26,608 nt of DNA from a virus. The position numbers and the translations under genes are program-made. Position 1 is the first letter of the stretch, and every line of letters starts with the position of its first letter. The notes below the pieces were generated by a model that saw only the letters and a list, made by a program, of their open reading frames with translations, was not told the DNA's origin and did no database searches. The stretch covers positions 1-26,608 of the IMG/VR virus record IMGVR_UViG_3300030060_007485; one strand, 5' to 3'. Below are positions 649 through 19,571 of this stretch, in pieces.

Positions 649-1128
649 TTAGGCGGCATCTCGACCAGCCTCTATAGAAGTATAATTTGGACTTTGACTT
701 GTTGCAATGTCTGAAAAGCTAGGAGTCTGACTAGTATCAATTTGACCATACACTAACGGAGTGCTTAAGCTAGTTGTAATTGCAAAAGTATCAGGAGTAA
801 CATTAGCATCAGCTGTGGTTGTTGCTGTGCCTAAACCACTGGTCAAACTGAAACTTGGCAGATTGATCACCTCGTTTTCATGGACGATAACAGAACCGAT
901 GGCGGAAGTTGTGACTTGCGTGCTTGGTGAAACATTAGCTTTGGCTACGACAGAAAGTGAACCAAGTCCTGATGTTATTGCCTGCGTACTTGGTGAAACA
1001 TCGGCTTTGGCAACTTGCGTAGTTGAGCCTAAGCCTGAGGTGATCGCTAATGTGCCAAGCGATACAGATACAGATTCACCGTTCCAAGTTCCCGAACCCC
1101 ATGTGCCTCGTCCCCAACCGACACTCAT
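649..1128 (-). CDS. Repeat-containing phage tail or spike-type structural protein (159 aa)
   Basis: The protein opens with a Gly/Trp-rich head (GWGRGTWGSGTWNG) and then has four to five tandem 22-residue repeats at about residues 29-138. The core pattern is (I/L/T)TSGLGS...VAKA(D/N)VSPSTQ. Short repeats of this kind are common in tail or fibre-associated proteins of environmental phages and suggest a repetitive beta structure. The start overlaps the stop of the 45-aa gene upstream by ATGA, so translation is probably coupled, and the fibre-like gene follows 19 bases downstream. There are no membrane segments or catalytic motifs. The structural role is inferred from repeats and position, and the exact virion location is unknown. 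Confidence 0.72.
   Translation of the reverse strand: MSVGWGRGTWGSGTWNGESVSVSLGTLAITSGLGSTTQVAKADVSPSTQAITSGLGSLSVVAKANVSPSTQVTTSAIGSVIVHENEVINLPSFSLTSGLGTATTTADANVTPDTFAITTSLSTPLVYGQIDTSQTPSFSDIATSQSPNYTSIEAGRDAA
715..1044 (-). repeat. Tandem 66-bp coding repeat (22 aa units)
   Basis: Four 22-residue units plus a degenerate fifth are encoded here. Two neighbouring units are still close at the DNA level: TGCGTGCTTGGTGAAACAT at 917-935 recurs with one change at 983-1001, exactly 66 bp away. The other units have diverged. This suggests growth by tandem duplication with one recent event. Confidence 0.8.
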
Positions 1129-1262
1129 AGATTATCTCTAACCTCTTCTAACAATGATTTTATATTATTGAGTTCTGCACGCACAGGTACAGTCATAAAA
1201 TCTAATGATAACATATTATCAATATTATTTATAACTTGTATTATCTTTTCTTTATCAGACAT
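1125..1262 (-). CDS. Small coupled protein of unknown function (45 aa)
   Basis: I place the start at the ATG at 1262, which overlaps the end of the 592-aa gene by 8 bases (ATGTCTGA). The stop overlaps the next gene by ATGA. A longer version starting at 1322 would add residues that lie wholly inside the upstream gene and has no ribosome site. The product (MSDKEKIIQVINNIDNML... to ...LEEVRDNL) is charged and predicted helical, with no membrane segment and no cysteine. There is no clear Shine-Dalgarno, so it probably relies on re-initiation after the upstream gene. It could be a chaperone or immunity-like partner of the 592-aa protein because the two are coupled, but that is only positional inference. 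Confidence 0.6.
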   Translation of the reverse strand: MSDKEKIIQVINNIDNMLSLDFMTVPVRAELNNIKSLLEEVRDNL

Positions 1263-3033
1263 TGTTAGATTTTGTAATATTTTGTATAATAGGCTTGATG
1301 GAATACAAATCAGACACATCATATTTTTCTTGGGAGTTAGGGCCAGCGGTCATTGAAACCCGTGGCAATGATAGGTTTGGTTTTTTTATACCACCAACAG
1401 AGGAAAACTGGATACCAGCCACACCCTCACAAGGTTTTGACTTTATCGTAAGTGGTTCAGAACTGTCCCAATCTGAGTTTGTAAAAATGTTTGGGTCGAA
1501 TCTTCCTGATCTGCCCAAAGATGTCACTTGACCACCCCGAGCTAACCGCACAGCAGTATTCTTGATTTCTTCAGGAATCTCTCTTAACACATCACCAAAC
1601 TCGTCAATCATTTGTTTTTTGTATTGTCGAGCAAGTTTTTCTGCCTCTATCATACCTGCACCTTTCAGTTCTTGGTTTTGCAGTTGTTTTTGTATAGCTC
1701 TGTATTGTTTATAAACAGGGTGCATTTTATCACCAGCCACTAACATTTTTGGGTGCACCAAAGCTATCTCTGCAACAATTTTTTCACCCGAAGGAGCTGT
1801 GTATTGAATGTTCAGCTTTCTGTCCATGTAACCTGTTTGGTTGATCTGTCTTTGTGAATCAAGGGTTGGGTATTTTCTGCTGATTAAGTTTACTAAAGCA
1901 TCTTCCTCATCGCCACTACGCACTAATATTCTTGTTCTCATAGGGTCTGTTATATTCAAAAAATTACCTTGATATTTTTCAAACGATTTTTCTGTAATTC
2001 GATCCATGCCTTTGACCTCGCCCACAGGACTGCCAGTAACATCATCTATGTCGTCTAATTTTCTCGCTGTTCTAGTGCCGAGGCTTTCTGCAATATCAGA
2101 AATTTCATCCTGAAAGCCTTTGTTGAGTTTTACACTACGAGCAAACATCTCATCGATTGTATTTAAGTCTGCTTGGTGTTTGTTGAAAATACTTTTTGTG
2201 TATGCTAAAGGTTTGTTACCAAATTTTCTGACTAAGGCCTCTGATGTTAGATTACCAGCTTGCGGTTGAAACTTCATCGCATCATCTAATAGGTCTTGTG
2301 TTTTTCCTATCTTTCTTGCTGTGTCATATTGTTTGAAGAGTTCTTGAGATTTAAAGACCCGTACAGGAATATCTGTAACCCCTAAATTTTGTAGTGCTTG
2401 TATAGAGGAGCCACCACCTAGCTGTTTGAAACGACCACCGGGCATTTGTAGAACTTCGATAGGTTGTCTTTTTTTTCTGCCTACTCCCTTATATATAAAA
2501 CCATCATCAACATTTTTTATAATATCTTCTGCAAGTTCTATTCTTTGTTGTTTTTGTTTTTTTGTTCCTCCTGAGGGTTGTTTTATATCTATTTTGTTCA
2601 CATCCACTAATGCGTCTGCCTCTTGAACTTTAATTGCTTTTTCTAGTGTGGGGTTAGTGACCTCTGTACCTGATTTAGTTTTGACAGCTCGCTTTAAGCC
2701 AATTTTCCCAAGATTGGCTAACTCACCGACTAAAGGTATTGCGGCAAGACCTGACAGGCCAGCGATACCTAAATTTACAGCACCTTGCCCTAGATTTCCT
2801 GCACTAAAATCTCTGACAGCATCACGACCATATTTTCCTGCGGCCGCAACATCGAGAGCCATGCCGGGTGGTGTAAAGCCAGCACCGATTTGTGCTATTA
2901 ATGGGACATTCTCTTCGTAACCAGTTACTAATCTGTCTAAAGCATCAGGACTGACTTCGCCACCTGCTTGTAGCTTTTTTATACTCTCGACTAAACCGCC
3001 TGATTGAAAGATGTCAACATCATCTAAGTTCAT
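1255..3033 (-). CDS. Putative virion-delivered multidomain protein with ParB-like and RelA/SpoT-like segments (592 aa)
   Basis: Seen from the N-terminus: a DDVDIFQSGGLV tag (residues 4-15) and a second LQAGGEV (21-27); a Gly/Ala hydrophobic module (about 53-118) also present in the 600-aa protein at 8090-9892; a stretch at about 175-232 (PIEVLQMPGGRFKQLGGG, then ALQNLGVTDIPVRVF) that resembles the ParB/sulfiredoxin fold; and a stretch at about 330-450 resembling RelA/SpoT-type nucleotidyltransferases. The last has KGMDRITEK, ITDPMRTRILV, GYMDRKLNIQ, AEIALVHPKM and H438..Y441. The tail carries RGGQV. The combination fits the polyvalent proteins of phages, which travel with the DNA and act in the new host. 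If the RelA-like fold is active it would transfer pyrophosphate to a nucleotide or tRNA, but activity is unproven. Domain calls are by motif only. No Shine-Dalgarno is visible. Confidence 0.6.
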   Translation of the reverse strand: MNLDDVDIFQSGGLVESIKKLQAGGEVSPDALDRLVTGYEENVPLIAQIGAGFTPPGMALDVAAAGKYGRDAVRDFSAGNLGQGAVNLGIAGLSGLAAIPLVGELANLGKIGLKRAVKTKSGTEVTNPTLEKAIKVQEADALVDVNKIDIKQPSGGTKKQKQQRIELAEDIIKNVDDGFIYKGVGRKKRQPIEVLQMPGGRFKQLGGGSSIQALQNLGVTDIPVRVFKSQELFKQYDTARKIGKTQDLLDDAMKFQPQAGNLTSEALVRKFGNKPLAYTKSIFNKHQADLNTIDEMFARSVKLNKGFQDEISDIAESLGTRTARKLDDIDDVTGSPVGEVKGMDRITEKSFEKYQGNFLNITDPMRTRILVRSGDEEDALVNLISRKYPTLDSQRQINQTGYMDRKLNIQYTAPSGEKIVAEIALVHPKMLVAGDKMHPVYKQYRAIQKQLQNQELKGAGMIEAEKLARQYKKQMIDEFGDVLREIPEEIKNTAVRLARGGQVTSLGRSGRFDPNIFTNSDWDSSEPLTIKSKPCEGVAGIQFSSVGGIKKPNLSLPRVSMTAGPNSQEKYDVSDLYSIKPIIQNITKSNNV

Positions 3034-3069: not shown

Positions 3070-3873
3070 TTAGTGGTAGGTATCGTGCTGTCTGTTGTCT
3101 TCGTCTAGCAAGCCTTGAAACTTTCTATTTAAAATCCTTTGCACCTTGTGATAAGGGAACTGTGGATACTCAGGAAAAGAACTTTCGATTTGTTTTGATA
3201 TAGCCTTGGCACCTCTGCCTCGACCAGCTAACTTGTAGATAGCTTTCAAAACTTCTTGCTCATTTGGTATAGGTTCTAACTTTGTGTGTTTACCTTCTTG
3301 GACTTTACGATAACCAAAAGGTGTATGGCCACCGATTGAGTAACCTTTTTCTGCATAAGCTATTTTACCACCATAAAGCCTAGACATGATTTGTTCCCTT
3401 TCGAACTCAGCAAACATTGCAAGGTTGTTTACTAACATTTGGTTCGACATTCTAACCATGTCTAGTTTCATGTTTAGACCAGTTTTGGTTTTATCTTTTG
3501 GCAAGGCGACTGGTATATCACCGAACATGTCGCAAAAATATAAGGTGATACCAGCCTCCTCAAACTTAGGAATCAAGTTAACCATTTCTAAAAATGATCT
3601 TGCTAATCTATCTAATTTGGTGCACACAACAATATCATTGGCATCCATAGTGTCAGTCAGTTCTCGTGAGCCTTGTCTTTCCATGATAGGTTTCATGCCA
3701 CTGGTTCCCGCATCAACAAATATTTTATCGACCTCACGGTTGTATTTTTGTTTGACAAAAGCTCGGATAGATTCTTCTTGTTGCTCGAGAGAGCTACCGT
3801 GCTTGACCTGTTGTTCAGAGGACACCCTGATGTAGCCGTAAATATTATTGATCTGTTTTTTAGGTTGTATCAT
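3070..3873 (-). CDS. Serine recombinase (resolvase/invertase family, 267 aa)
   Basis: The catalytic domain is complete. YIRVSSEQQ carries the nucleophile Ser18 beside Arg16, KLDRLARS (86-93) carries the conserved arginines, and FEREQIMSRL (157-166) begins the long E-helix. GGHTPFGY (181-188) opens a recombinase-type DNA-binding domain, but only about 80 residues follow. The protein is therefore longer than a classic resolvase and much shorter than large serine integrases, and lacks their zinc ribbon and coiled coil. The ATG is preceded by AAGGAG, and the start overlaps the upstream gene by 14 bases. It may serve as an integrase, a resolvase or an invertase; no paired recombination sites are obvious. 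A structured intergenic region lies about 460 bp upstream. Family assignment is firm and role is open. Confidence 0.9.
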   Translation of the reverse strand: MIQPKKQINNIYGYIRVSSEQQVKHGSSLEQQEESIRAFVKQKYNREVDKIFVDAGTSGMKPIMERQGSRELTDTMDANDIVVCTKLDRLARSFLEMVNLIPKFEEAGITLYFCDMFGDIPVALPKDKTKTGLNMKLDMVRMSNQMLVNNLAMFAEFEREQIMSRLYGGKIAYAEKGYSIGGHTPFGYRKVQEGKHTKLEPIPNEQEVLKAIYKLAGRGRGAKAISKQIESSFPEYPQFPYHKVQRILNRKFQGLLDEDNRQHDTYH

Positions 3874-7928: not shown

Positions 7929-8136
7929 AATTAAATTATATGGTGCCTTCTTCAAAAAAGTAGAAGGCACTAATTTTTATACTCTGTTTGGGAAAGATCG
8001 TTGGCAGATTATTGACGGACAACCTGTAGAAATGTTTAAAGACGAAAAATTGTTAGAGGCTCAGAAAAAAAATTGGACAGAGTTAGATTTTACTCCTGAG
8101 TTTGTTTCTTTTCTATCTCGTAAACGGGAGAAGTAG
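7912..8136 (+). CDS. Small hypothetical protein, last gene of the plus operon (74 aa)
   Basis: The ATG at 7912 lies in the end of the upstream gene and has only a weak TTTAGG, so coupling is probably important. The product (MTQPTKIKLYGAFFKKVEG, TLFGKDRWQIIDGQPV, ending SFLSRKREK) is a small mixed-fold basic protein. Its 3' end overlaps the opposing 600-aa gene by 47 bases. The transcript then meets a clean terminator at 8195-8216, which is unusual because that terminator is part of the opposing reading frame. Function unknown. Confidence 0.6.
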   Translation: MTQPTKIKLYGAFFKKVEGTNFYTLFGKDRWQIIDGQPVEMFKDEKLLEAQKKNWTELDFTPEFVSFLSRKREK

Positions 8137-9892
8137 TGTCTTTTAACATGCCTTGCCCTAAGTAAACAAAAACCACCGCTGGTAAAATTGTACGGCCCTC
8201 ATCGAGGGCTTTTTTTAGACCTGCAAAACCTTTTTCTTTTATTATTGTCAATGCAGTATTAATGTCTTTTCTGATCGGTAAGTCATTTTCACGGGCAAAA
8301 GTCAAATCCACTTCCAATTTATTTTCTACAAACTTTCTAACTTTTTTACTAGCATCAAGTTTACGGATAGCATCTGTATCTAGGTTTTGAAACAATCTTT
8401 TGGTAGCGGTTCCCGAAATGTCAGCCAACTCGTCAGCATTTTTTGCAAACTCAGATGAAAAATCAGAATAATTTATAGAGTCGAAGTTACCTTTTTCGAC
8501 AACTTCTATTTTGTCACCAAATTTTTTGTTCGAAAATTCAACAATGTCGGAAACAACATCATCTGAAAGTTCTTCAAGATTATCGAAAGATTTGTTGTTA
8601 AAGAAAGTCACACCCTTAGGCAAAGTTACAGGATCAAGTTCGTATTTTTTGGTAAATCCTGCTAGTTCTTTAAACTCATCTTGTGATAGACCTGTTTTTA
8701 AACTTAATTTTATCGTGTCATTTTTACCCTTTGGTTTAGCAACAACTCGACTGGTAGGAGTCCCTTCTTGTTGAGTTATAAAACCGAAGACATCATCTCT
8801 TTGTTTAATTTTTTCGACATCTTGTGGTCTTGGTATGCCTGCCTCAGTCTTTACTATAGGCCTAGATATAAATAAAGGATTAAAGGATTCATCGTAAAAG
8901 CCTTGACCCAATCGCACATCTTTTTGTGGCACCCCTAATGCCTCATAAAACGGGTCTTGTCGATACATTTCACCTGTACTTGGGTCCCTGTAAATATCAA
9001 GCGAATACTCAGCTCTTTGTGCCTCAGGTAATTCTGTTATGCCTTTAAGTTGTCCTGTAGAAGGACCCGGTATAGTTTCTGAGGTTGAGGCTAAGGTATC
9101 TAAACCTCTGCGTAATCCTCTAGCTCCAAGTGCACCTGCGGCGGCAATAGTGCCGACTGCGGGTAGTGTGCCTAACCCTTCAAGACCTGCCATGGCTATA
9201 TTTCCTGCTCGTGCTAGACCTTCGGTTTCCTGAGCTCGTTTGCCATATTCAACAGCTCCTATGGCTGATAAAGTCTCACCCAGCACAGGAGTGGCATACA
9301 AAGCAAGTTGTGTTTGCAGTGGTAACTCTTCGAATCTAGCGAAAGCCTCTCGCTCTTTGCCCTCGTCCAATAATTCTTTGATCTCCTTCGAGCCAACAAG
9401 AGTTTCCGCTGTCGCCTGAGCAATTTTGTCGGGTCTTGTTATGTTGAGGTTGCCTAACGCATCTAATAAATTAAATCGATCTTTTTCGACCTCACCGCCC
9501 TCTTGGAATTTTTTTTCTACTCGTAGACCAACTGCTGGAGTCTCACCCAAAACAGGTACGGATTGTTGTTTGGCAAACAAAGTTGCTACATCAAATATAT
9601 CTAAGGGTGTATCTTTTATGGGTAAATCTTTCTCTAAAATGTATGAACTTTTATTGAGCAATTCAGGATTTTTTCTTATTCTTAGGAAGTTTTGTCTTTT
9701 GTTTAATTCTTCTAAGGCTAAAGATTTTATAGCTCTGTCTATATTTTCAGCAAGATTTTCACTTGGGTTTAAGTCAAGTCTCTCTTCCAAATCTTTGATA
9801 ATTTTTGCTATCTTAAATAATTCTGTATTTGGTTTTGGCTCGATAGGTTCGAAAATATCAATATCATCACGAGTTTGTAAATCTTGCATCAT
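8090..9892 (-). CDS. Second putative virion-delivered protein with tag and hydrophobic module (600 aa)
   Basis: The N-terminus has DDIDIF (9-14), and FQEGGEV occurs at 129-135; both resemble motifs in the 592-aa and 517-aa proteins. Residues about 200-265 form a Gly/Ala-rich module (EYGKR..., AGNIAMAGLEGLGTLPAVG, GLRR) that aligns with the one in the 592-aa protein. After it comes a part I cannot assign (GQGFYDESFNPLFISRP, then TIKLSLKTGLSQDEFKEL). A hydrophobic stretch RTILPAVVFVYLGQGML lies near the C-terminus and could be one membrane helix. The ATG follows a TATAAT by only 6 bases and has no Shine-Dalgarno. I read it as a protein carried in the virion with a different effector end, but no catalytic motif is visible. 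Confidence 0.6.
   Translation of the reverse strand: MMQDLQTRDDIDIFEPIEPKPNTELFKIAKIIKDLEERLDLNPSENLAENIDRAIKSLALEELNKRQNFLRIRKNPELLNKSSYILEKDLPIKDTPLDIFDVATLFAKQQSVPVLGETPAVGLRVEKKFQEGGEVEKDRFNLLDALGNLNITRPDKIAQATAETLVGSKEIKELLDEGKEREAFARFEELPLQTQLALYATPVLGETLSAIGAVEYGKRAQETEGLARAGNIAMAGLEGLGTLPAVGTIAAAGALGARGLRRGLDTLASTSETIPGPSTGQLKGITELPEAQRAEYSLDIYRDPSTGEMYRQDPFYEALGVPQKDVRLGQGFYDESFNPLFISRPIVKTEAGIPRPQDVEKIKQRDDVFGFITQQEGTPTSRVVAKPKGKNDTIKLSLKTGLSQDEFKELAGFTKKYELDPVTLPKGVTFFNNKSFDNLEELSDDVVSDIVEFSNKKFGDKIEVVEKGNFDSINYSDFSSEFAKNADELADISGTATKRLFQNLDTDAIRKLDASKKVRKFVENKLEVDLTFARENDLPIRKDINTALTIIKEKGFAGLKKALDEGRTILPAVVFVYLGQGMLKDTTSPVYEIEKKQTQE
8195..8216 (+). terminator. Rho-independent terminator of the plus operon, inside an opposing gene
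   Basis: GCCCTC (8195-8200), loop ATC and GAGGGC (8204-8209) form a perfect 6-bp GC-rich stem followed by seven T residues (8210-8216). It sits 58 bases beyond the last plus-strand stop codon, within the coding sequence of the 600-aa gene on the other strand. Confidence 0.85.
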
Positions 9893-9898
9893 TACAAG

Positions 9899-9928
9899 AT
9901 TATACTAGCGAAAAGGTGGGCCAGTAAA
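9899..9928 (-). promoter_or_regulatory. TATAAT 6 bp before the start codon (possible leaderless promoter)
   Basis: On the minus strand TATAAT (9904-9899) abuts the stop codon of the oxygenase gene and ends 6 bases before the ATG at 9892, which puts the predicted +1 on the A of the ATG. A weak -35 TTTACT (9928-9923) is 18 bp upstream. Confidence 0.45.
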
Positions 9929-10456
9929 CCAAGCAACAAGTACATATCTTTCGCCTTTGGTAATCGGTTTGACTTTGTGTGGTAAGAAAGAACTGAAAGC
10001 AACTACTTCACCAACTTTAGGTTTTGTGCAACTAGCACTTTCACCTGTACGGAAACATATCTCGCCACCCTCGTATCTTTCGTTGAGTAAAAGACTCATA
10101 GATATTTTTCTAGTGGCAGGAGTCCCTTCGGGTCCTATGTCGATATGATATTCGTAACCACGACTAGGTGACTTGTATCTGATCACTTGTGCTTTTTCGA
10201 TTCCGTCTATGTCGTAACCAAAATATTGATTCACGGTTTTGGCAACTTTACTTAGAATGGCATACAATCTTTTGGCATTGTACTCAATCGGATATATCTC
10301 AGCATCCCGTGTATCTTTTTCTATCTTTTCTTTGCCCTCTGTGAATATTTTAGCTTGTTGGGGTTCCTTATCAATAATGTAATCCATGAACAAATCCACA
10401 TCTTCTTGTCTTAAGGCTAGACCAGTCACACCATGTTTGGGCATTTCTGCACTCAT
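9905..10456 (-). CDS. 2-oxoglutarate/Fe(II)-dependent dioxygenase (183 aa)
   Basis: The iron site is complete: HID (His104, Asp106) and the distal His160 in FLPHKV, with Arg170 in GERYVLVAWF placed to hold 2-oxoglutarate. ISMSLLLNERYEGGEI, GEVVAF and WFTGPPF match the double-stranded beta-helix core of prolyl-hydroxylase or PiuC-like phage oxygenases. These enzymes use O2 and 2-oxoglutarate to hydroxylate protein, nucleic acid or small molecules; the substrate here is unknown. I start at the ATG at 10456 because the longer TTG start at 10495 adds only upstream residues without a ribosome site. The gene lies 12 bases before the 600-aa gene and downstream of a 343-base non-coding stretch. Confidence 0.88.
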   Translation of the reverse strand: MSAEMPKHGVTGLALRQEDVDLFMDYIIDKEPQQAKIFTEGKEKIEKDTRDAEIYPIEYNAKRLYAILSKVAKTVNQYFGYDIDGIEKAQVIRYKSPSRGYEYHIDIGPEGTPATRKISMSLLLNERYEGGEICFRTGESASCTKPKVGEVVAFSSFLPHKVKPITKGERYVLVAWFTGPPFR

Positions 10457-10532
10457 TGGCACATTTTGGTTTATTTTGTACAAAATTACAATCAATAGGA
10501 ATCATATTTTTTGGTAATTCAGTGTGACGAAC

Positions 10533-11318: not shown

Positions 11319-11663
11319 TTAACTCTCATCAATATAATAATCTAAAGTTAGTTCTTCACCTACCTGAATATCTCTTGAAGTATAGACATTGAAAACTCTG
11401 TAGTCATCCCAGTCTAGTTCTTCTGACACATAACAGTTCGCATCTTCATCAGTATGATTAAAAAAACCACCCAAAGGTGTTCTGACATAGCCACAGATCA
11501 GTGGTACTTTTATATGTGACATACCTAAATCGGTGTTGGCCTCAATCTTTTGTGTTGCAAATAAACCCAACCCTTCTATTGGGCTTGTTTTTATGGTTAT
11601 GAAATCAGGTAGAGGTTTGTAATAAAATTTATTAAACTTCGTTTTTGATATTTCTTTTTTCAC
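11319..11663 (-). CDS. Minimal SET-domain protein, putative protein lysine methyltransferase (114 aa, GTG start)
   Basis: All short SET motifs are present: GLGLFATQKIEAN (31-43) for S-adenosylmethionine contact, FFNHTDEDANC (67-77; usual NHSxxPN) for the pseudoknot core, and YTSRDIQVGEELTLDYY (94-110) with the catalytic-region Tyr residues. The whole protein is about the size of the viral enzyme vSET. These enzymes methylate lysines, and phage versions could act on ribosomal, histone-like or phage proteins; the target here is unknown. The start is a GTG at 11663, overlapping the 52-aa gene by 32 bases, with a weak GAGAG upstream. I saw no ATG that keeps the first motif. Confidence 0.82.
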   Translation of the reverse strand: MKKEISKTKFNKFYYKPLPDFITIKTSPIEGLGLFATQKIEANTDLGMSHIKVPLICGYVRTPLGGFFNHTDEDANCYVSEELDWDDYRVFNVYTSRDIQVGEELTLDYYIDES

Positions 11664-12080: not shown

Positions 12081-12743
12081 TCAATCGTGTATCCCATCGA
12101 ATAAATCCATTTGTCTTAATTTTGCTTTTATGTCTACACACTCATAATTTTTGTTGTTACCCTTAGGATATGCTTTTATATCCCATTTCATGTCTTTCTT
12201 CATATCTCTCTTTTCTTTTTTATTACCATGTAGATAGATATATCTAAAAGTTGGCATAAGTTCTTCTGTCTTCATTATCCTCCCTTTCTTATCTACATCT
12301 CTTCTCATATCAAAAGTCTTGCCATCCTCAAAAGTATATCTATGTTTTTTAGCACTGGTTCCTGTATAAAGCCAATTAGTAGCCTGATAAACATAACCAT
12401 GATGATTGTGGTTAGCATCAGCATAAGAAACCAATGCCATGGGTGTTGGTAATTTTTTTATTGCTCTAGTGATGAAGTAACTAGCAGAGTTTTTCGGTGT
12501 ATGTGAATTTAAAACCAGTCTATTAAGTTCAAGAGTTTTTACTCTTTTCTTATGGAATATACATTTGCCATCGTTGTATTCTTTATTGGGTGGACAACCA
12601 AAAGTGATAACTCCTTCTAAATTGTTATCAAGATCAACCAAGCCAAACGCATAAGATATGGGACACAACCTTTTTGCATAATGTTTTTCTAGCAACCAAT
12701 CCTGCACTTCATAATTTTGTAGCTGTTTAATCCTGTAATCCAT
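12081..12743 (-). CDS. mom: Mom-like DNA adenine modification protein (220 aa)
   Basis: The protein resembles the phage Mu Mom family, a GNAT-fold group that modifies adenine to shield phage DNA from restriction. Characteristic blocks are TLELNRLVLNS (70-80), NSASYFITRAIKKL (85-98), the core VSYADANHNHHGYVYQATNWLYTGTS (105-130), and KKHRYTF after it. Family members carry SYAD...HxGxxYQAxNWxYTG in this order. The start at 12743 shares one base with the primase-helicase stop (TGATG), so translation is coupled; a TTG 12 bases earlier is unlikely. Its place beside replication genes suits modification during or just after synthesis. The chemical product here cannot be deduced. Other GNAT roles are possible but less likely. 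Confidence 0.75.
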   Translation of the reverse strand: MDYRIKQLQNYEVQDWLLEKHYAKRLCPISYAFGLVDLDNNLEGVITFGCPPNKEYNDGKCIFHKKRVKTLELNRLVLNSHTPKNSASYFITRAIKKLPTPMALVSYADANHNHHGYVYQATNWLYTGTSAKKHRYTFEDGKTFDMRRDVDKKGRIMKTEELMPTFRYIYLHGNKKEKRDMKKDMKWDIKAYPKGNNKNYECVDIKAKLRQMDLFDGIHD

Positions 12744-14932
12744 CAATCGTTCCAATCCTTGTAGTCTCCACCAAAACTTCCTGAGCTCCCGCTCCCTGAG
12801 TCTTCGACTGGAGTGTAGTCAAGATCATAGACATTCTTACCGTTGGTCCTTCTTTTCTCAATGCCATGCTCGTGTAAAACACGAACCGCATCTTTGATGT
12901 CAGGCATCCTCGGATTACTAATACCCAAGTCCCTAAGGAACTGTGTCATCTGTACAGGCTCAGTTGCCTTACTATCAAAGTTCACATGTTGCAATACCAA
13001 GTCTTCGACTGAGCTTTGTGTTCGGTAAGTTTCATTCGATTCTTGTAAGAGCTCTCGCTCATCAGGAGATAGAAACCAATTCTTTACACCTTTAATATAA
13101 TATTGTTCTTTGATCTCTGCCCATACTTGTTGCATATCGATACCGTGATTGACATTGATCTCTTTAACAGCAAGCACCCAAAATCTTCTGTTACCACTGG
13201 TATCTGTCAAGAACTCTCGAGCATTGACACTAGCATAGAAGGCAGTTCGTCTTTGGTAGGTAGTGAAAGCTCGGTCATAAGGCAAACGCAACTCATCTGT
13301 TTTGGCTGTCACAAAGGCCTTGAGTTGGTCTATGTCAGACTTCTTAAAAGTCGACTCTATTTCACCGAGCTCCACTATCCAATGAGAGACTGCTCGTTTC
13401 ACACTATCTTTATCTGATGGGTTGAGTGTCGCTCCTTCTAACAACCAACCCTTCTCGTAATCGCACAACCGTTTGAACCATAAAGTCTTACCCAAACCCT
13501 GTGCTCCTTGTAGGACCAAGATGCCTTCGAGCTCAACTCCATTCTCTTCATAAGCGGCGGCTACACAACTGATCAACCATTTCTTGAGCAATATCTCTTT
13601 TTGTTTTTTAGATTCGACTGTGACCAAGGTATCCATGAAAGCCTCAAGTCTTGATGTCCCATCCCAAGGCTTAGAGTCAATCCATTCTTTCACAGGGTTG
13701 TACTCTTCAGCCAATATCTTGAGGTAGTCTCTGACCTTAGTGTGTGGTATGCCCATATTGATACAGCGATTTTCAATCTCAATCAGGCTGGCCTCTTCTC
13801 GCATGTCAGCGATAAACTTCGTTTCAGGTATCTCGATCTCCATGCGTTTCTTAATTACATTGTAGCGAACCTGTATGCCGTGGGTGGTCAAAACTCCACC
13901 GATGTTATCTTTAGTATTGAGTATGCGACCACTACCACTTCTTTGATAGTCGTACTCCACAGGGATGTCCAGTGTTTGTAACACCACCTCACCTTCGGTC
14001 TTCGCAACTTCGTTCTTATGGTCGTTGTAGTCACCCTTAGTTTCAGGCATAAAGACCTCAGCCTGCCCACCTAGTTTCTTGATGATGTTGCAAGCCTTAG
14101 TCGCCTCTTTCTCTCCTGTCTTACTATCATCATTGTCAGCTATAAATATGTGTTTGTGCTTAGGAAAATAGTCATACATAGTCTCAGCTACCGCTGATAA
14201 ATTGTAAGCATCGAAAGTGACGACCACAGCTTGACTGTAATCTGCATAGTAACTGCTGGCAGTCGCATAGCCTTCGCAGTAGTTTATAATTTTGTTGTTG
14301 CTATTCTTGAGCAACTCTTGTCCCAAGATAAAAAAGCTCCCGCTTTTTTTGGAACCAGTAAGAAATCTTTTTTCGCCTTTTTCATCTATGTATTGCAAAC
14401 CGACCACGGCAAGATGCTGGTCGTACAGCGGAATCATAAGACGACCTTTGGTGTCTTGTTTCAAACCATAAGACAATACTTGTTTGCGTTCTAAGTAGGG
14501 ATGTTTTTCACAAGGTTCACTACTGTTCCATATTGAGACAGCTCGTTCTGCGGCCTTGCTATATTTCTCGGCTTGTTTGACCTCAGCCTCTTTTCTTAAT
14601 CTTTCGATCTCTTCTTTGTGTGCTTTGGTCAATCTACGACCTGCACCATTTTCAGGATGCCATGTTCCTTGTGGTTCGTTAGCACTTAATCTGTAATCAC
14701 CAAAGCGACCAAAAGGTGTAGATTGGTCTGCCCAAAATTGATACCAACCGACTTTCTTGCGTTGACCACCAACATTCATAAAGGCTCGACCTACAGACCC
14801 ATCAGTTACCAAACCTCTTTGTGGGTCAGGCTCTAATCCATGGTCAAACAAGAAGTTTGTAAACTGTGTTTGTAAATCATGTGATAAGGGACGGTCAAAG
14901 TTTTTCTTAGGTTTTTTAATTTTTAGTGACAT
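12743..14932 (-). CDS. Toprim primase fused to VapE-type helicase (729 aa)
   Basis: The N-terminal half is primase-like. FWADQSTPFGRFGDYR precedes a Toprim core with Glu220 in NYCEGYATA, DAYNL (241-245) and the acidic ADNDD (265-269) that would bind metal. Residues about 415-650 match the virulence-associated protein E helicase family: KPWDGTSRLEAF, Walker A GAQGLGKT (476-483), Walker B HWIVELGEIE (517-526), an arginine region RRTAFYASVNAREFLTD and NRRFWVL. The C-terminus is a Gly/Ser/Asp-rich tail. Together these suggest one protein that primes and unwinds at the fork, as in phages and islands that carry primase-VapE fusions. No DNA polymerase is in the window. The ATG at 14932 has a weak ribosome site. 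Confidence 0.88.
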   Translation of the reverse strand: MSLKIKKPKKNFDRPLSHDLQTQFTNFLFDHGLEPDPQRGLVTDGSVGRAFMNVGGQRKKVGWYQFWADQSTPFGRFGDYRLSANEPQGTWHPENGAGRRLTKAHKEEIERLRKEAEVKQAEKYSKAAERAVSIWNSSEPCEKHPYLERKQVLSYGLKQDTKGRLMIPLYDQHLAVVGLQYIDEKGEKRFLTGSKKSGSFFILGQELLKNSNNKIINYCEGYATASSYYADYSQAVVVTFDAYNLSAVAETMYDYFPKHKHIFIADNDDSKTGEKEATKACNIIKKLGGQAEVFMPETKGDYNDHKNEVAKTEGEVVLQTLDIPVEYDYQRSGSGRILNTKDNIGGVLTTHGIQVRYNVIKKRMEIEIPETKFIADMREEASLIEIENRCINMGIPHTKVRDYLKILAEEYNPVKEWIDSKPWDGTSRLEAFMDTLVTVESKKQKEILLKKWLISCVAAAYEENGVELEGILVLQGAQGLGKTLWFKRLCDYEKGWLLEGATLNPSDKDSVKRAVSHWIVELGEIESTFKKSDIDQLKAFVTAKTDELRLPYDRAFTTYQRRTAFYASVNAREFLTDTSGNRRFWVLAVKEINVNHGIDMQQVWAEIKEQYYIKGVKNWFLSPDERELLQESNETYRTQSSVEDLVLQHVNFDSKATEPVQMTQFLRDLGISNPRMPDIKDAVRVLHEHGIEKRRTNGKNVYDLDYTPVEDSGSGSSGSFGGDYKDWND

Positions 14933-15013
14933 TTATTTCTTGCTCTTAATGTTAGAGTGTGTTTTAATTTACACTATGCTATAAAAATTAGCAATCATTT
15001 ATCGAGGAAATTT

Positions 15014-15727
15014 ATGAGTTTAACAATTAGTAACCAAGGAAATGCTGACCTACCAAAGTTAGCTAAAGGAGTATATCATGGTACTTGTTTCCGTATTGTT
15101 GACTTGGGTGAATCTATCCAAGAATACAAAGGCGAAAAGAATAAAAGAAAACGAGTACATATTAGTTTTGAAATCACTGAGGCGGTAGACCCCTCTGACA
15201 ATGCAGTTGATATGGATGATGGGCGACCATTTGCCGTATCTAAAACATATACCGCCTCTCTTTTTGAAAATGCGGCACTGCGTATTGACCTACAAGCATG
15301 GCGAGGCAAAAGTTTTACCGAAGAAGAATTAAACGGTTTTGACATTGGTAAGCTGTTGGGTTGCACAGCGAGGATTGAAGTCGGACACACAGAACCTAGC
15401 GACAAAGGTGCTGGTGGTAATCCAAAAATACTATCATTGCAAAGACCTGATGGTGGCATAGAACAAGATAAGCAAACTAAAAACGATAAGCAAAAATTTG
15501 ATTTGTCAGTTTATTGTGACGAGTTCAATGGTAACTCTAGTCCTGAAACAAAAGCTATGTGTGATGTATTCGAAAGTCTACCAACATGGCATCAAGAAGA
15601 GATACAAAAAAGTTTTGAATATGAGGCGGCTGTTGAGCAAGGTGCAGATAAACCTGTAACAGAAAGTAATGGTGGTCTTGCTGATTTGGCGAAGGATGAC
15701 GAGAAACATCCTGACATACCTTTCTAA
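15014..15727 (+). CDS. Phage SSB-like protein with bacterial-type DIPF tail (237 aa)
   Basis: The start at 15014 is set by GAGGAAA 5-8 bases upstream. The body has a predicted OB-fold pattern (LPKLAKGVYHGTCFRIVDLG, RKRVHISFEIT, TYTASLFENAALRIDLQAW) that I recall from phage single-strand DNA-binding or recombination proteins. LQAWRGKSFTEEELNGFDIGKLLG is typical of that group. A flexible acidic C-terminal region ends exactly in DIPF, the tip of bacterial SSB proteins that recruits host repair and replication factors. It lies upstream of an exonuclease on the same operon, which fits recombination-dependent replication. The fold assignment is by pattern and the tail is seen directly. Confidence 0.75.
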   Translation: MSLTISNQGNADLPKLAKGVYHGTCFRIVDLGESIQEYKGEKNKRKRVHISFEITEAVDPSDNAVDMDDGRPFAVSKTYTASLFENAALRIDLQAWRGKSFTEEELNGFDIGKLLGCTARIEVGHTEPSDKGAGGNPKILSLQRPDGGIEQDKQTKNDKQKFDLSVYCDEFNGNSSPETKAMCDVFESLPTWHQEEIQKSFEYEAAVEQGADKPVTESNGGLADLAKDDEKHPDIPF

Positions 15728-15737
15728 TTAGGTGGTG

Positions 15738-15785
15738 GAGCAACTTCGTGGTTCTCTTGTACAACTACCCCATAAGGAGTTGCTC
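15738..15785 (+). promoter_or_regulatory. Hairpin masking the ribosome site of the DUF3310 gene
   Basis: GAGCAACT (15738-15745) pairs perfectly with AGTTGCTC (15778-15785). Inside, GTGGTT (15749-15754) pairs with AACTAC (15763-15768) with one G-U pair. The only ribosome site, AAGGAG (15774-15779), is partly in the outer stem and 13 bases from the ATG at 15793, so folding could control translation. Confidence 0.5.
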
Positions 15786-15792
15786 TTAGCCT

Positions 15793-16107
15793 ATGAAATA
15801 TGATGATGTAAACCAACCCAAACATTACATGGGTGAGGGTGTAGATGGACAAAACATTGAGTGTATAGATGCCATGGTTGCTGTTTACGGTGAAGAAAGA
15901 GTAAAGGAGTGGGCTGAAATAAATGCTTTTAAGTATCAATGGCGACAAGGCAAAAAAGGTGATCAGGCAGAACACCTAAAAGATAAGCAAAAAATTATTT
16001 GGTACACAAGATACTCTATGGGTGATGATCCAAGAAGAGATGAAACAATAGATATGTATGCTGAAGAAAAATGTGACTTTCAAGGAGATACAGAAAAAGA
16101 TGACTAA
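15793..16107 (+). CDS. DUF3310-family phage protein (104 aa)
   Basis: The sequence follows the DUF3310 pattern: NQPKHYMGEGVDGQNIECIDAM at residues 7-28, then AFKYQWRQGKKGDQ and KDKQKIIWYTRYSM. The family is widespread in phages, often sits among nucleotide-metabolism or replication genes, and has no settled biochemical role. The C-terminus is charged and acidic. The gene sits between the SSB-like protein and the second oxygenase, whose start overlaps its stop by 8 bases. The distant, structured ribosome site suggests regulated translation. Family assignment is strong; function is unknown. Confidence 0.85.
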   Translation: MKYDDVNQPKHYMGEGVDGQNIECIDAMVAVYGEERVKEWAEINAFKYQWRQGKKGDQAEHLKDKQKIIWYTRYSMGDDPRRDETIDMYAEEKCDFQGDTEKDD

Positions 16108-16813
16108 GGAAATGAAATACGACATTTACTCACTACCAAGTGTTTTGATGTTACAACACGAGATGGATACAGAGATGGTTAAGGACTTAAACGACTACCT
16201 CGATGATTTGCAAAAAAGCAGAGACAAAAAATCAGCCAGCGATGATTTGGTTGGTCAAATAAATAAGGGCGAGCAACTTAACATTGACCCTGAACATGAT
16301 AAGGTCAAGCCTTTCCGCAACTTGGCTGTCAATCTTGGTATCAAATATATCCAACATTTTGTGCAACATACTGGCACTAATGTCAGACCTAAAAAATTAG
16401 GTTTGGATAAACTATGGTCTGTGCATAGTTATGAGGGTGATTACAACCCAATACATGATCATCTAACATTAACTAATATGGGCATATCTTTTACCTGTTG
16501 GACTAAAGTACCTGAACAAATAACAAAACCAAAAGATACTGGGTCTTACGACCTTTATAACAATTCAGGTGCCATAGACGGTTTCATCAACTTTACTTAT
16601 GGTCTTAACCAAACAGGTGACCCTGAGAAACTTAGACCATCTCAATCGAGATACATAAAACCTGAGGTCGGTAAGTTTCTGATGTTTCCATCATGGATGC
16701 AACATTGTGTCTATCCGTTTTTCGGTGAGGGTGAACGCAGAACTGTGGCTGGTAACTTAAACTGTTTCGACTTATCTAAAGAAGATATAGATAAACTTAA
16801 GGAGAAAAAATGA
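16100..16813 (+). CDS. Second 2-oxoglutarate/Fe(II) oxygenase, 2OG-FeII_Oxy_5-like (237 aa)
   Basis: I start at the ATG at 16100, overlapping the previous stop by 8 bases; a GGAG is 12 bases upstream. LWSVHSYEGDYNPIHDHLT (105-123) provides the first iron ligands around His119 and His121. VGKFLMFPSWMQHCVYPFFGEGERRTVAGNLN (190-221) supplies the distal His202 and a basic residue (Arg213 or 214) for 2-oxoglutarate. This order is typical of a phage family of putative oxygenases (PF13759 type). The substrate is unknown. It differs clearly from the first oxygenase, so the phage carries two unrelated members. It is coupled by ATGA to the exonuclease gene. Confidence 0.82.
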   Translation: MTKEMKYDIYSLPSVLMLQHEMDTEMVKDLNDYLDDLQKSRDKKSASDDLVGQINKGEQLNIDPEHDKVKPFRNLAVNLGIKYIQHFVQHTGTNVRPKKLGLDKLWSVHSYEGDYNPIHDHLTLTNMGISFTCWTKVPEQITKPKDTGSYDLYNNSGAIDGFINFTYGLNQTGDPEKLRPSQSRYIKPEVGKFLMFPSWMQHCVYPFFGEGERRTVAGNLNCFDLSKEDIDKLKEKK

Positions 16814-17592
16814 TAGCACCTGAGTTTGAAGTTGGCATCTACGATAATATCCCTTATGAAGATTATGCGGCCATACCAGCTTACAGGTCACACGACCTAA
16901 CAGCTGTCATCAAATGTCCGTACACATGGAAGTTCAAAAAACAGGTTGAGCAAACACCTTCGATGTTGGAGGGCAGAGTGCAACATACTTTGTTTTTAGA
17001 GGAGCACAACTTTGATAAAGAGTTTGTTGTGCAACCACAAATAGATAGAAGAACCAAAGCTGGCAAGGAGGATTACGAAACTTTTTTAAACACAGTAGGT
17101 GAACGCACAGTAATAAGTCAAGATTTATACGATACTTGTTTAGAAAGAAAAGGTGTTGTCCAAGAGTTTGTACCCAAACCAACAGACATGGTTGAGCTTA
17201 CAATTTGTTTCATGTGGCACGATCAACCTTTCAAAGCACGACTTGATTGGTACGACAATGAATATGTATGGGATTTGAAAACCTGTGTCGATGCCTCACC
17301 TCGTGGCTTTATTCGTGCTGTTAACAACTTCAACTATCACATGCAAGCATCTTTATATATTGATGCCTGTAAAGCAGTAAATCTCAAATGTGAAGGTTTT
17401 AAATTCCTAGCACAAGAGAAAAAAGACCCGTACCCTTATGCGGTTTACACACTATCAGATGAGTCGATCAAATATGCTCAAGCAAGAAACGAGCAAGCAC
17501 TAGAAAAGATTTTAAAATGTGAGGCTGAAAAAGAATACAGGCCTTTCGGCCTGTATGGTGAACAAGTCATAGAATCTACTGACCTGTATTAA
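16810..17592 (+). CDS. PD-(D/E)XK exonuclease, RecE/DUF3799-like (260 aa)
   Basis: The nuclease core is readable: GRVQH (55-59) with the conserved His, an acidic Glu129, LDW (Asp146), the WDLKT strand (Asp155, Lys157) as the PD-(D/E)XK signature, and YHMQASLY (176-183) with the Gln and Tyr found in RecB-like phage exonucleases. Such enzymes resect DNA ends for single-strand annealing or intron-free recombination; DUF3799 members occur beside SSB-like genes as here. AAGGAG precedes the ATG, which overlaps the oxygenase stop by ATGA. No annealing protein is seen nearby. The last codons carry a perfect hairpin that serves as the terminator of the opposing operon. Confidence 0.85.
   Translation: MIAPEFEVGIYDNIPYEDYAAIPAYRSHDLTAVIKCPYTWKFKKQVEQTPSMLEGRVQHTLFLEEHNFDKEFVVQPQIDRRTKAGKEDYETFLNTVGERTVISQDLYDTCLERKGVVQEFVPKPTDMVELTICFMWHDQPFKARLDWYDNEYVWDLKTCVDASPRGFIRAVNNFNYHMQASLYIDACKAVNLKCEGFKFLAQEKKDPYPYAVYTLSDESIKYAQARNEQALEKILKCEAEKEYRPFGLYGEQVIESTDLY
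17527..17556 (-). terminator. Rho-independent terminator of the minus operon, inside the exonuclease gene
   Basis: ATACAGGCC (17535-17543) and GGCCTGTAT (17548-17556) form a perfect 9-bp stem. Read on the minus strand the loop is GAAA and the stem is followed by TCTTTTTC (17534-17527). It lies about 40 bases past the stop codon of the 328-aa minus gene. Confidence 0.75.
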
Positions 17593-17594
17593 TT

Positions 17595-18581
17595 TCACAT
17601 TTGTACCATCTCCACTTTTGTTGGTCTTTGATAAAAGCCAAAGAATTGCTCACCATTTGCTTTAGTAACTCTTGCAGAAAATTTAACCTTAATACCAGTC
17701 AAGTCGTCAATCTTTAAGTAGCCTTTCTCATCGTAGTCCAATGTGTCAACAATTACTTTAGGACAAGTACCATAAACTGTATAACCTTTGTTATCTTTTA
17801 CAAATATCTTTGTCTGCATACCATATTCACTTTCAATGAGTTTGGCCTTAGTGATTGTGCCTTCAACACACTGTTTGAAACCACTTTTTTGTATTGGCCT
17901 CATTGAGGCAAGTTCTTTAAGGTAATCATTTCTTATCTGTAAATACTTTTCTGATTTCTTAGCCACATCAGCATCACTAGGAAACTGAGCAATAATTTTT
18001 GTAAAGAGGTTTATTTGTGCAGGTGTTAAATCTTTACCTGCAACTGCTTTTTCATAAATGTTTCTAAATATATCCCAAGCAAAAGTTTTTCTTGCAGCCA
18101 TACAGTTTATAAACTTAGCAGCATCAAGATTAGATATGTCTTTGGATTTTACAATTTCCCAGTCAGTCGGATAGACATTAGTCAAATCATTTATTTCTTC
18201 AGCAAGTTTGCGTCTCATAGATAAAAAACCATCAAAACAATTTTCCTCAACCCACTCAGCTATCTCATTCAGGACAACTTCATCGATACCCTGTGAGGCC
18301 ATAGTTTGATAAAACTGTTGAACATTTTCTGCCTTTCTACCAGTTTTAGAGGTGTTATAGTCACGCATGGAACTTTGCTCACAGATATAGAAATCTTTAA
18401 TTGAATTAGATTTACAGTAATCAATAAAGGTATTGACGGCCTTTGTGTAATGCTTTGAAACATTACGAACATATTTCCATTTACCAGTATATCCTGCCGT
18501 ACTATCCCACCAGTAAATACAATACATTTTTTGATTAGGTTTTAGTGCTAATGCTCCAAATGTAGGATTTTCGTTTTTCAT
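17595..18581 (-). CDS. Hypothetical protein with C-terminal OB-fold-like domain (328 aa)
   Basis: The C-terminal third (from about residue 235) reads EGTITKAKLIESEYGMQTKI, then KGYTVYGTCPKVIVDTL, a GIKVKFSARVTKAN strand and FFGFYQRPTKVEMVQM. This five-strand pattern resembles a small OB-like nucleic-acid-binding barrel found in several phage proteins. The N-terminal part has Trp/Tyr-rich strands (KMYCIYWWDSTAGY), and the middle is helical with many Lys and Asp. A strong ribosome site (GGAGGAAGG) overlaps the previous stop (ATGA). I infer nucleic-acid binding, perhaps in replication or recombination, but cannot name the family. Confidence 0.65.
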   Translation of the reverse strand: MKNENPTFGALALKPNQKMYCIYWWDSTAGYTGKWKYVRNVSKHYTKAVNTFIDYCKSNSIKDFYICEQSSMRDYNTSKTGRKAENVQQFYQTMASQGIDEVVLNEIAEWVEENCFDGFLSMRRKLAEEINDLTNVYPTDWEIVKSKDISNLDAAKFINCMAARKTFAWDIFRNIYEKAVAGKDLTPAQINLFTKIIAQFPSDADVAKKSEKYLQIRNDYLKELASMRPIQKSGFKQCVEGTITKAKLIESEYGMQTKIFVKDNKGYTVYGTCPKVIVDTLDYDEKGYLKIDDLTGIKVKFSARVTKANGEQFFGFYQRPTKVEMVQM

Positions 18582-18865
18582 CCTTCCTCCTGTTCAAGTT
18601 CTAACTCTGCGATTTCTTGTTCTAACTTATTTTGCCCTAAACTCCACTCACTTCCATTCTTTTTAATTTCGTCTAAGAACTCATTTACTATAATTTCTGC
18701 TTGATCCCAACTTACACCATATAGGGCAACAAGAAAACTTGTGCAATCAAAGTAAAATTGAGAGCCTTCTCCAACAGCCTCATTTTCGTTTTCTGTGTAA
18801 TATATGTAACAACACAAAAGTTTCTCTATCAAAATTCTGTGTTCTTTTGTCAACGCAACATTCAT
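18578..18865 (-). CDS. Hypothetical acidic protein (95 aa)
   Basis: The ATG at 18865 has GGAGGAAGTATAGG before it, the same leader found before the 88-aa gene. The product begins MNVALTKEHRILIEKLLCCYI and ends in an acidic helix (LEQEIAELELEQEEG). The middle has Cys, Tyr and Trp (YFDCTSFLVALYGVSWDQ) and could be a compact helical domain. There is no signal peptide or clear membrane helix. It overlaps the 328-aa gene by ATGA and follows the 88-aa gene by one base. No family is recognised. Confidence 0.6.
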   Translation of the reverse strand: MNVALTKEHRILIEKLLCCYIYYTENENEAVGEGSQFYFDCTSFLVALYGVSWDQAEIIVNEFLDEIKKNGSEWSLGQNKLEQEIAELELEQEEG

Positions 18866-18866
18866 C

Positions 18867-19133
18867 CTATACTTCCTCCTGACCTGTATTAATTAATTTA
18901 TTAAAGTCTGTAACAGCTATTTCGTCTAAGAAAATTTTTTGGTTGCTATCTGCAATAATGTGGATATGCCCACTGTCCTCTATTGATCCCCACTGTGTGT
19001 GATCAACAGTATCGTCTTTTAACAACGGTGCTCCCCACACAAATTCAGAACCACGATTACTGCACTCTGCTGTTTCCACAATAAAAGCATTACCTCTATA
19101 TTCAGGAACAGTAAAAATTTGAAACTTTTTCAT
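18867..19133 (-). CDS. Hypothetical beta-rich protein (88 aa)
   Basis: The ATG at 19133 has GGAGGAAGTATAGG upstream and overlaps the stop of the 43-aa membrane protein by ATGA. The product (MKKFQIFTVPEYRGNAFIVE..., then HIHIIADSNQKIFLDEI and a short helical end) is mostly beta with a few His residues. It is likely a small cytoplasmic fold. Its stop lies one base before the next gene. I do not recognise the family and assign no role. Confidence 0.6.
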   Translation of the reverse strand: MKKFQIFTVPEYRGNAFIVETAECSNRGSEFVWGAPLLKDDTVDHTQWGSIEDSGHIHIIADSNQKIFLDEIAVTDFNKLINTGQEEV

Positions 19134-19261
19134 CCTATACTTCCTCCATTAATAAAGTCTACAATTAAAACAAAACAGAGAGCGAACACACCGAAATAAC
19201 ATAAAGCCAATTCAGCTCTCTCGTCCAACCATCTTTCTGCTTTCCAAACTAAATATCTCAT
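19130..19261 (-). CDS. Small single-pass membrane protein, first gene of operon (43 aa)
   Basis: An ATG at 19261 opens 43 codons. A basic amphipathic start (MRYLVWKAERWLDERAE) is followed by a hydrophobic helix ALCYFGVFALCFVLIVDF and a short NGGSIG end, whose codons double as the ribosome site for the next gene. The stop overlaps that gene by ATGA. The promoter TTGCAC-16-TATAAT ends 8 bases before the ATG and no Shine-Dalgarno exists, so its mRNA is probably leaderless or nearly so. A small membrane peptide made from a strong promoter may modulate the host membrane; the role is unknown. Confidence 0.55.
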   Translation of the reverse strand: MRYLVWKAERWLDERAELALCYFGVFALCFVLIVDFINGGSIG

Positions 19262-19269
19262 ACACTAAT

Positions 19270-19297
19270 ATTATACAAAATTTGGAGTGATGTGCAA
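19270..19297 (-). promoter_or_regulatory. Strong sigma-70-type promoter TTGCAC-16-TATAAT
   Basis: On the minus strand TTGCAC (19297-19292) and a perfect TATAAT (19275-19270) are 16 bp apart. The predicted +1 lies 0-2 bases before the ATG at 19261. It faces away from the regulator gene on the other side. Confidence 0.7.
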
Positions 19298-19349
19298 GTT
19301 TTTATACATTACAGCATTTTATTATATCTGTATCAATTTTCATATTTGT

Positions 19350-19376
19350 TTGCACAAAACAGTAAAATAGTATAAA
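19350..19376 (+). promoter_or_regulatory. Divergent promoter for the regulator gene (TTGCAC, TATAAA)
   Basis: TTGCAC (19350-19355) and TATAAA (19371-19376) are only 15 bp apart, shorter than ideal, so activity may be weak or regulated. Between this and the opposite promoter an inverted repeat TACAG (19310-19314)/CTGTA (19328-19332) could be an operator for the adjacent regulator. Confidence 0.4.
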
Positions 19377-19400
19377 CTTTGTCAGTATATATATTTGAAT

Positions 19401-19565
19401 ATGGAAACTAAATTAAACGACAACAACAAGATTAGAAAAAGTTTAGCTGTTGATGTTGCTACTTATGAATTGTTACAAGATATTTGTGGCAAGGAAAGAA
19501 GGCCTAAGATAGACCAGTTAAAAGTTCTTATAGAACAAGAACATAACAGACTGTTTGCATCTTAG
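19401..19565 (+). CDS. Ribbon-helix-helix-like small regulator (54 aa)
   Basis: An ATG at 19401 opens 54 codons. KIRKSLAVDVATYELLQDIC reads as a beta strand with alternating residues followed by a helix. KERRPKIDQLKVLIEQEHNR then gives the turn and second helix of an Arc/CopG-like ribbon-helix-helix fold. Such proteins dimerise and bind operators. It is transcribed away from the minus operon from a shared 139-base control region, so self-regulation and control of that operon are likely. No Shine-Dalgarno is seen before the ATG. The fold is inferred from pattern only. Confidence 0.55.
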   Translation: METKLNDNNKIRKSLAVDVATYELLQDICGKERRPKIDQLKVLIEQEHNRLFAS

Positions 19566-19571
19566 AACAAC

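Follow-up and report, generated by a model that had tools for sequence, protein, structure and literature searches.

The locus and its genes

IMG/VR virus record IMGVR_UViG_3300030060_007485 supplied the 26,608-nucleotide stretch of DNA analysed here (positions 1 to 26,608 of the record, called the window throughout). Near one end of it lies a gene for a 592-residue multidomain protein (P0001), which we call the effector, and within the 3' end of that gene, on the opposite strand, lies a much smaller open reading frame (ORF) that we call the antisense gene (Table 1). Relatives of the effector were gathered from IMG/VR with a motif search (D[IV]DIF[QE]xGG) and a profile search, which together gave more than 20 distinct proteins, mostly 29-45% identical to it. 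All of these relatives come from uncultivated viral contigs that are related to one another, and the locus counts given below are therefore not counts of independent events. Searches of isolate phages found no relatives, either with tblastn of P0001 and P0003 or with blastn of window positions 12743-20000, and the N-terminal module of the effector had no match in GTDB genomes. The surroundings of the effector gene are well kept. Of 27 loci compared, among which one contig appears twice, 26 have a serine recombinase gene immediately upstream of it. Downstream of the effector gene there is usually a small conserved gene, then a p159-like gene, then a tail-type gene.

Table 1. Positions of the features in the window, with residue ranges for parts of the effector
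Feature	Position	Strand	Remarks
Effector ORF (P0001), 592 residues	1255..3033	-	tag, helical module, ParB/sulfiredoxin domain, RelA/SpoT domain, disordered tail
N-terminal tag DDVDIFQSGG, residues 4-13	2995..3024	-	also on several unrelated proteins of these phages
Helical module, Gly/Ala-rich, conserved, residues 29-112	2698..2949	-	common to Zeta-bearing versions of the slot
ParB/sulfiredoxin-fold domain, residues 137-244	2302..2625	-	with it in some relatives, without it in others
RelA/SpoT-fold pyrophosphokinase domain, residues 291-492	1558..2163	-	
Codon of invariant D363	1945..1947	-	Mg-ligand position of the synthetase family (Asp of syn2)
Codon of invariant E422	1768..1770	-	second acidic catalytic position (Glu of syn4)
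Effector C-terminal tail, residues 494-592	1258..1554	-	pLDDT <50; frame open, replacements near-random; overlaps the antisense gene
Antisense gene, 77 residues (MEYKSDTSYFSWELGPAV...)	1298..1531	+	candidate immunity protein
Promoter-like TTGTTA-17-TATAAT	1262..1290	+	ends 7 nt before the antisense ATG; 10/12 consensus matches, best in 4 kb
Exchanged stretch	1262..2802		no DNA similarity to Zeta-bearing loci L003-L005
Small conserved gene (MSDKEKIIQV...)	1125..1262	-	start overlaps the effector stop; downstream edge of the slot
Serine recombinase, Resolvase PF00239, E 9e-28	3070..3873	-	directly upstream of the effector
P0002, second tagged gene (RDDIDIF)	8090..9892	-	N-terminus as in ART-PolyVal P0011 of L004; C-terminus as in P0009 of L001

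Domains of the effector

Searched on its own, P0001 returned nothing useful from Pfam, PHROGs or the sequences of solved structures, and a search of the window record with PF04607 (RelA_SpoT) gave zero matches. A sigma-70 match (E 0.005) was set aside as likely noise from the helical region. Within the first set of family members, PF04607 matched 9 of 11 proteins below threshold (best E 0.0017, all direct matches falling below the curated cut-off). A profile built from 23 sequences over residues 288-492 matched solved chains of GTP pyrophosphokinases and alarmone synthetases, namely 2be3 (E 3.3e-6), 3l9d (7.8e-6), YjbM/RelQ (8e-5) and Tas1 (0.0011). In the AlphaFold2 model of the effector, residues 130-490 mostly have a predicted local distance difference test score (pLDDT) of 80-96. 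When residues 291-494 of the model were compared with solved structures in VIA-align, they aligned with small alarmone synthetases over 169-172 residues at Z 13.0, and the toxSAS enzyme CapRel matched with Z 10.8. Tas1 (6ox6, E 2.1e-5) is the top Foldseek match of the model, followed by RelQ/RelP-type synthetases.

The two acidic residues D363 and E422 are invariant in the 23 sequences and align to the Asp and Glu of YjbM, and K349, R366, R368 and H438 are also invariant in this 23-member alignment, where present. According to the alignments, K341, K349, D363, R368, the aromatic residue at 402, E422, H438 and Y441 occupy catalytic or substrate residue positions of YjbM-type enzymes. Fold, sequence profile and catalytic residues together place the domain in the RelA/SpoT superfamily. 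We regard the fold itself as nearly certain, and the sequence suggests that the enzyme is probably active.

Upstream of this domain, residues 137-244 of the model resemble Noc (Z 10.1), sulfiredoxin (9.6), free serine kinase (9.2), and PadC and ParB (both about 9), within an overall VIA-align range of Z 8-10, and TIGR00180 (parB_part) matches P0001 weakly (E 0.0036; best family member 3.8e-4). Judged from the modelled fold, we place this segment in the ParB/sulfiredoxin superfamily. The stretch that aligns by eye to the nucleotide-binding Arg-rich box (GERRxxA-like) reads LGGKST or LGGGSS, without arginines.

An earlier, sequence-only reading of this DNA had proposed a ParB/sulfiredoxin-type segment at about residues 175-232 and a RelA/SpoT-like segment at about 330-450. 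The ORF is real, the sequence blocks quoted for the 592-residue protein lie where they had been placed, and both folds were borne out by sequence profiles and structure comparison, each with wider limits than first drawn (Table 1). The antisense gene in the 3' end and the exchangeable slot had been overlooked.

An exchangeable slot and a common N-terminal tag

Comparison with the loci L003-L005 gives DNA identity of 89-92% up to codon 78 of the effector and again from window position 1262 onward, with nothing shared between. In those loci the slot encodes a protein whose first 109 residues correspond to those of the effector (75% identity) and lead into a Zeta-toxin kinase (PF06414, E 2e-12), and Zeta-type versions are also found in L072, L077, L083 and L084 (L077 confirmed, E 4e-17). 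The RelA/SpoT versions vary among themselves, with the ParB/sulfiredoxin domain in or out and an ART-type domain added in some members. Because a common N-terminus is joined to RelA/SpoT or Zeta versions in one and the same slot, the family behaves as polymorphic toxins do. The sequence-only reading had suggested that the effector may be a polyvalent protein acting early in infection. That part of it gains indirect support from the replacement of the C-terminal part by a Zeta-toxin kinase in near-identical phages, from the added ART-type domains, and from the ART-PolyVal or PBECR5 domains borne by other DxDIF-tagged proteins of these phages.

Among 352 ORFs, 40 have the tag motif [DN][IVL][DN][IV]F near the start (residues 1-25), where shuffling predicts 0.08, a contrast that is overstated in that homologues are counted repeatedly and the set was partly fetched by the motif. 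The stronger point is that the tag is spread over unrelated types of protein (RelA/SpoT, Zeta, ART, PBECR5 and P0009). Many effectors have a second, C-terminal copy of the tag, which the effector of the window lacks. The tag may play a role in virion loading, and we lean slightly towards delivery of the effector in the virion.

Several further tagged genes were seen. Compared with L001:1115-2554 and L004:440-1960, P0002 looks like an ART-PolyVal N-terminus fused to the body of a second tagged protein at a shared EGGEV, as if the ART part had been deleted. P0004, which stands among long structural-type genes, begins with a QIDIFQEGG tag, and a Gly-rich neighbour has YAQGGAVQRLQEGGEP (window positions 22157-23710 and 25395-26606, both on the minus strand); the tag may be a general mark of virion or ejection proteins. 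In L018:3-1412 (minus strand), an ORF with an ART-type domain continues into a second tag and N-terminal module (LDDIDIFQESGEVSPDLG...), and tagged modules can therefore occur in tandem. The Zeta-bearing slots have a small ORF of their own, in the +1 frame and overlapping the 3' end of the effector gene (MPQESSKTYKFDPDAIDDEVLQAHV...; L003:6200-6400, L004:7260-7460, L005:2180-2380 and L084), which could be a partner of Zeta. A different short ORF lies just past the effector stop in L072 and L077.

A conserved gene antisense to the end of the effector gene

The last ~90 codons of the effector gene are overlapped on the opposite strand by an ORF that is conserved at 24 loci. Since the two frames share their third codon positions, counting of wobble positions left the frame undecided, and the BLOSUM scores of replacements were used instead, with control regions. 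Over the overlap, the mean score is -0.08 for the antisense frame, which points to conservative replacements under selection on the protein, versus -0.72, close to random, for the sense frame, while two control regions of the effector favour the sense frame (0.14 versus -1.09, and 0.02 versus -0.76); random placement gives -0.74 and -0.80. The antisense protein is modelled by AlphaFold2 with a pLDDT of 87.6 and a predicted template modelling score of 0.76, versus a pLDDT below 50 for the sense tail. All 22 loci of the set have a TA...T hexamer at exactly 7 nt ahead of the antisense ATG or GTG, against a background of 0.058 per position, and 19 of the 22 have TTGTNN 17 nt farther upstream, which we read as the layout of a predicted leaderless promoter. 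L088, a locus outside the set of 22, has a leader with a ribosome site instead.

The distant relative L062 has a homologous small gene (hhalign E 2.4e-18). It lies on the other strand, some 1.4 kb downstream from the RelA/SpoT gene, with which it has no overlap, and it shares only 5 nt with its neighbour. Based on the replacement pattern, the confident fold, the fixed promoter spacing and the L062 homologue, we believe that the antisense ORF is very likely a real gene. The sense frame is free of stops across the overlap in 22 of 22 loci, where 0.4-2.3 stops would be expected per locus, so selection keeps the effector frame open here, perhaps for the sake of a C-terminal tag or of coupling to the gene that follows.

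The gene order of L062 was also noted (L062:3331-6684 and L062:7007-8044). A 1118-residue multidomain protein with repeated ANGGDV-type motifs and a terminal RelA/SpoT domain that keeps ExQ comes first; between it and the homologue of the antisense gene stands an ORF with an ART-like reading.

Linkage ties the antisense gene to one version of the effector. An IMG/VR search with the antisense protein found 32 contigs, all 32 with a RelA/SpoT effector on the opposite strand, and the gene is absent from all seven Zeta-bearing slots (7/7). The antisense protein has no match in Pfam, PHROGs or the sequences of solved structures, and Foldseek found nothing significant for it in the PDB or among viral models.

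Proposed mechanism and alternative explanations

The folds, the slot exchange, the tag, the antisense gene and the promoter-like sequence were computed, and from them we infer virion loading, action in the cell and protection. Our best reading is an exchangeable, probably virion-delivered, toxSAS-like effector accompanied by an antisense-nested immunity gene, to which we give a probability of about 0.6. Under this reading, the N-terminal part would load the effector into the virion or the ejection machinery, and the effector would act in a newly infected or competing cell, where its RelA/SpoT domain would use ATP as the pyrophosphate donor for a nucleotide (more probably adenosine, yielding (p)ppApp) or for tRNA, a chemistry that would arrest or reprogram the cell. 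The antisense protein would act as the immunity factor. Its expression would start from a host-type promoter, on phage DNA that is either just entering the cell or already resident, and the protein would protect producing or lysogenic cells, probably by obstructing the acceptor site in the way that Tis1 does with Tas1. With such a promoter on the opposite strand, production of the antidote would not depend on late transcription, and the two strands would be transcribed in opposition. We find it reasonably likely that the antisense protein is the cognate immunity protein. The chances appear to us even that an immunity gene lies wholly within the gene of its own toxin, on the opposite strand and with its own leaderless host-type promoter, the two making up one physical cassette, swapped as a whole and with opposing transcription of its genes.

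Some points weigh against this reading. The GRVK Arg and the ExQ Gln are missing from most members of the family, although the Gln is kept in the divergent L059 and L062. The specificity motifs do not fit either: the guanosine-type (RSH) set consists of Syn2 AVR, Syn3 SxH and Syn4 IR, and the adenosine 3'-pyrophosphokinase (Apk) set of Syn2 RYT, Syn3 GxN and Syn4 YH (PMC12226406), while the effector has RTR, DRK and LV or II in the alignments and agrees with neither, the first Arg of syn2, R366, being the sole Apk-motif residue that it shares. The motifs thus do not decide between alarmone and tRNA chemistry, and the substrate is not readable from the sequence. Toxicity, in turn, is suggested indirectly, by the family and by the exchange with Zeta. 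Finally, Tis1 (6ox6_B), the immunity protein that counters the toxin Tas1, is among the four best structural rows for the antisense protein (Z 4.5, 62 residues, root-mean-square deviation 4.0), but the match is weak, is tied with the unrelated MalF (4.7) and has no Foldseek or sequence significance.

Two things add weight to the Tis1 match: the best match of the effector is the Tas1 chain (6ox6_A) of that crystal entry, and the linkage data had pointed to immunity ahead of the structure search. Enzymes that make (p)ppApp are reported to be inhibited by Tis1-like partners that cover the acceptor site, and tRNA-modifying enzymes to pair with a different antitoxin fold (PMC11782079). If the resemblance holds, the effector would by this rule more likely be a (p)ppApp synthetase than a tRNA modifier. 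Our assignment of (p)ppApp as the product is tentative, at somewhat less than even odds.

An alternative is that the effector enters along with the DNA as an enzyme of early host takeover, either a pyrophosphokinase that makes alarmones or one that acts on tRNA, and that the antisense gene is real but encodes a regulator or an unrelated inhibitor travelling with the cassette. RelA/SpoT-bearing polyvalent proteins have been proposed as host-modifying effectors (PMC5512222), and sequence and Foldseek searches place the small protein in no immunity family, both of which would fit this alternative. We nevertheless consider it unlikely, given that the small gene is linked one-to-one with the RelA/SpoT version and absent with Zeta, that the pair persists in L062 without overlap of the two genes, and that Tis1 is among the best structural neighbours of the small protein. 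A RelA/SpoT-fold domain that is catalytically dead and has a structural or binding function within a minor virion protein would account for the lost canonical synthetase residues, but it is improbable in view of the invariance of D363, E422, K349, R368 and H438 and of the swapping of this domain for another catalytic toxin fold. That the antisense ORF is no gene and owes its conservation to selection on the sense tail of the effector could draw on the stop-free sense frame and on the constraint that two frames with coinciding third codon positions put on each other, yet it is very improbable against the replacement pattern, the confident fold, the fixed promoter spacing and a homologue that overlaps its neighbour by a mere 5 nt.

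Other genes of the window

The window also encodes a phage SET domain protein (11319-11663, minus strand; PF00856, E 7e-10) and, beside a primase-helicase, a Mom-family DNA-modification protein (12081-12755, minus strand; PF25680, E 4e-30). Two distinct 2OG-Fe(II) oxygenases are found in this 26.6-kb fragment, one at 9905-10495 on the minus strand (E 1e-13) and one at 16058-16813 on the plus strand (E 2e-12). Junctions of the form AGGAGG...ATG with KEAA ends were considered as a possible repeat and rejected as ordinary strong ribosome sites.

Significance and comparison with known systems

Phage-borne polymorphic toxins are known chiefly from MuF proteins, and the proposed system, if true, would add another delivery scaffold, in uncultivated phages. 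A short terminal tag common to several toxin classes would be a testable virion-loading signal. We found no earlier report of an antisense-nested immunity gene in the literature searched, the coverage of which was incomplete, and as far as that literature goes the arrangement of toxin and candidate immunity gene is undescribed. Since annotation drops ORFs that lie antisense within longer ones, small immunity genes may be overlooked elsewhere.

The toxSAS enzymes of toxin-antitoxin systems (FaRel2, CapRel; PMC11782079) likewise combine a RelA/SpoT-fold toxin with a small protein partner, but the delivery-type N-terminus and the opposite-strand overlap set the present system apart, and the pseudo-zinc-finger antitoxin domain was not seen here. 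Bxa-type polymorphic toxins, encoded by Bacteroides prophages (PMC11699363), are another family in which one N-terminus is combined with different toxin domains and immunity proteins are present; they differ in having an ART toxin, another N-terminus and other hosts. In the type VI secretion pair Tas1-Tis1 (PDB 6ox6; PMC11782079), Tas1 is the best Foldseek match of the effector and Tis1, its immunity protein, one of the best neighbours of the antisense protein, the latter a weak match without sequence support, whereas the phage setting, the added ParB/sulfiredoxin domain and the gene layout are different here.

With phage polyvalent proteins (PMC5512222) the effector and its relatives share combinations of ParB/sulfiredoxin, RelA/SpoT, ART and PBECR-type domains. 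The effector is smaller than those proteins and no metallopeptidase processing domain was seen in it, and neither slot-like exchange of the C-terminus nor a partner gene is described for them (PMC5512222). By architecture, the effector is a polyvalent or polymorphic phage effector.

MuF polymorphic toxins of the Apk2 type, with IapK and Aph1 immunity (PMC12226406, PMC5576092), are likewise phage-encoded and have a conserved N-terminus, exchangeable C-terminal toxins, a RelA/SpoT-fold toxin and a small partner gene at the 3' end. Their partner gene lies downstream on the same strand, whereas here it is antisense and nested within the effector gene. In place of MuF there are the tag and the helical module, the specificity motifs differ, and no Aph1-like hydrolase was seen here. 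Scans with Pfam, PHROGs and NCBIfam found no MuF domain in the effector family, and because this domain is absent and the specificity motifs disagree we did not file the effector as a member of MuF-Apk2, which is its closest functional analogue.
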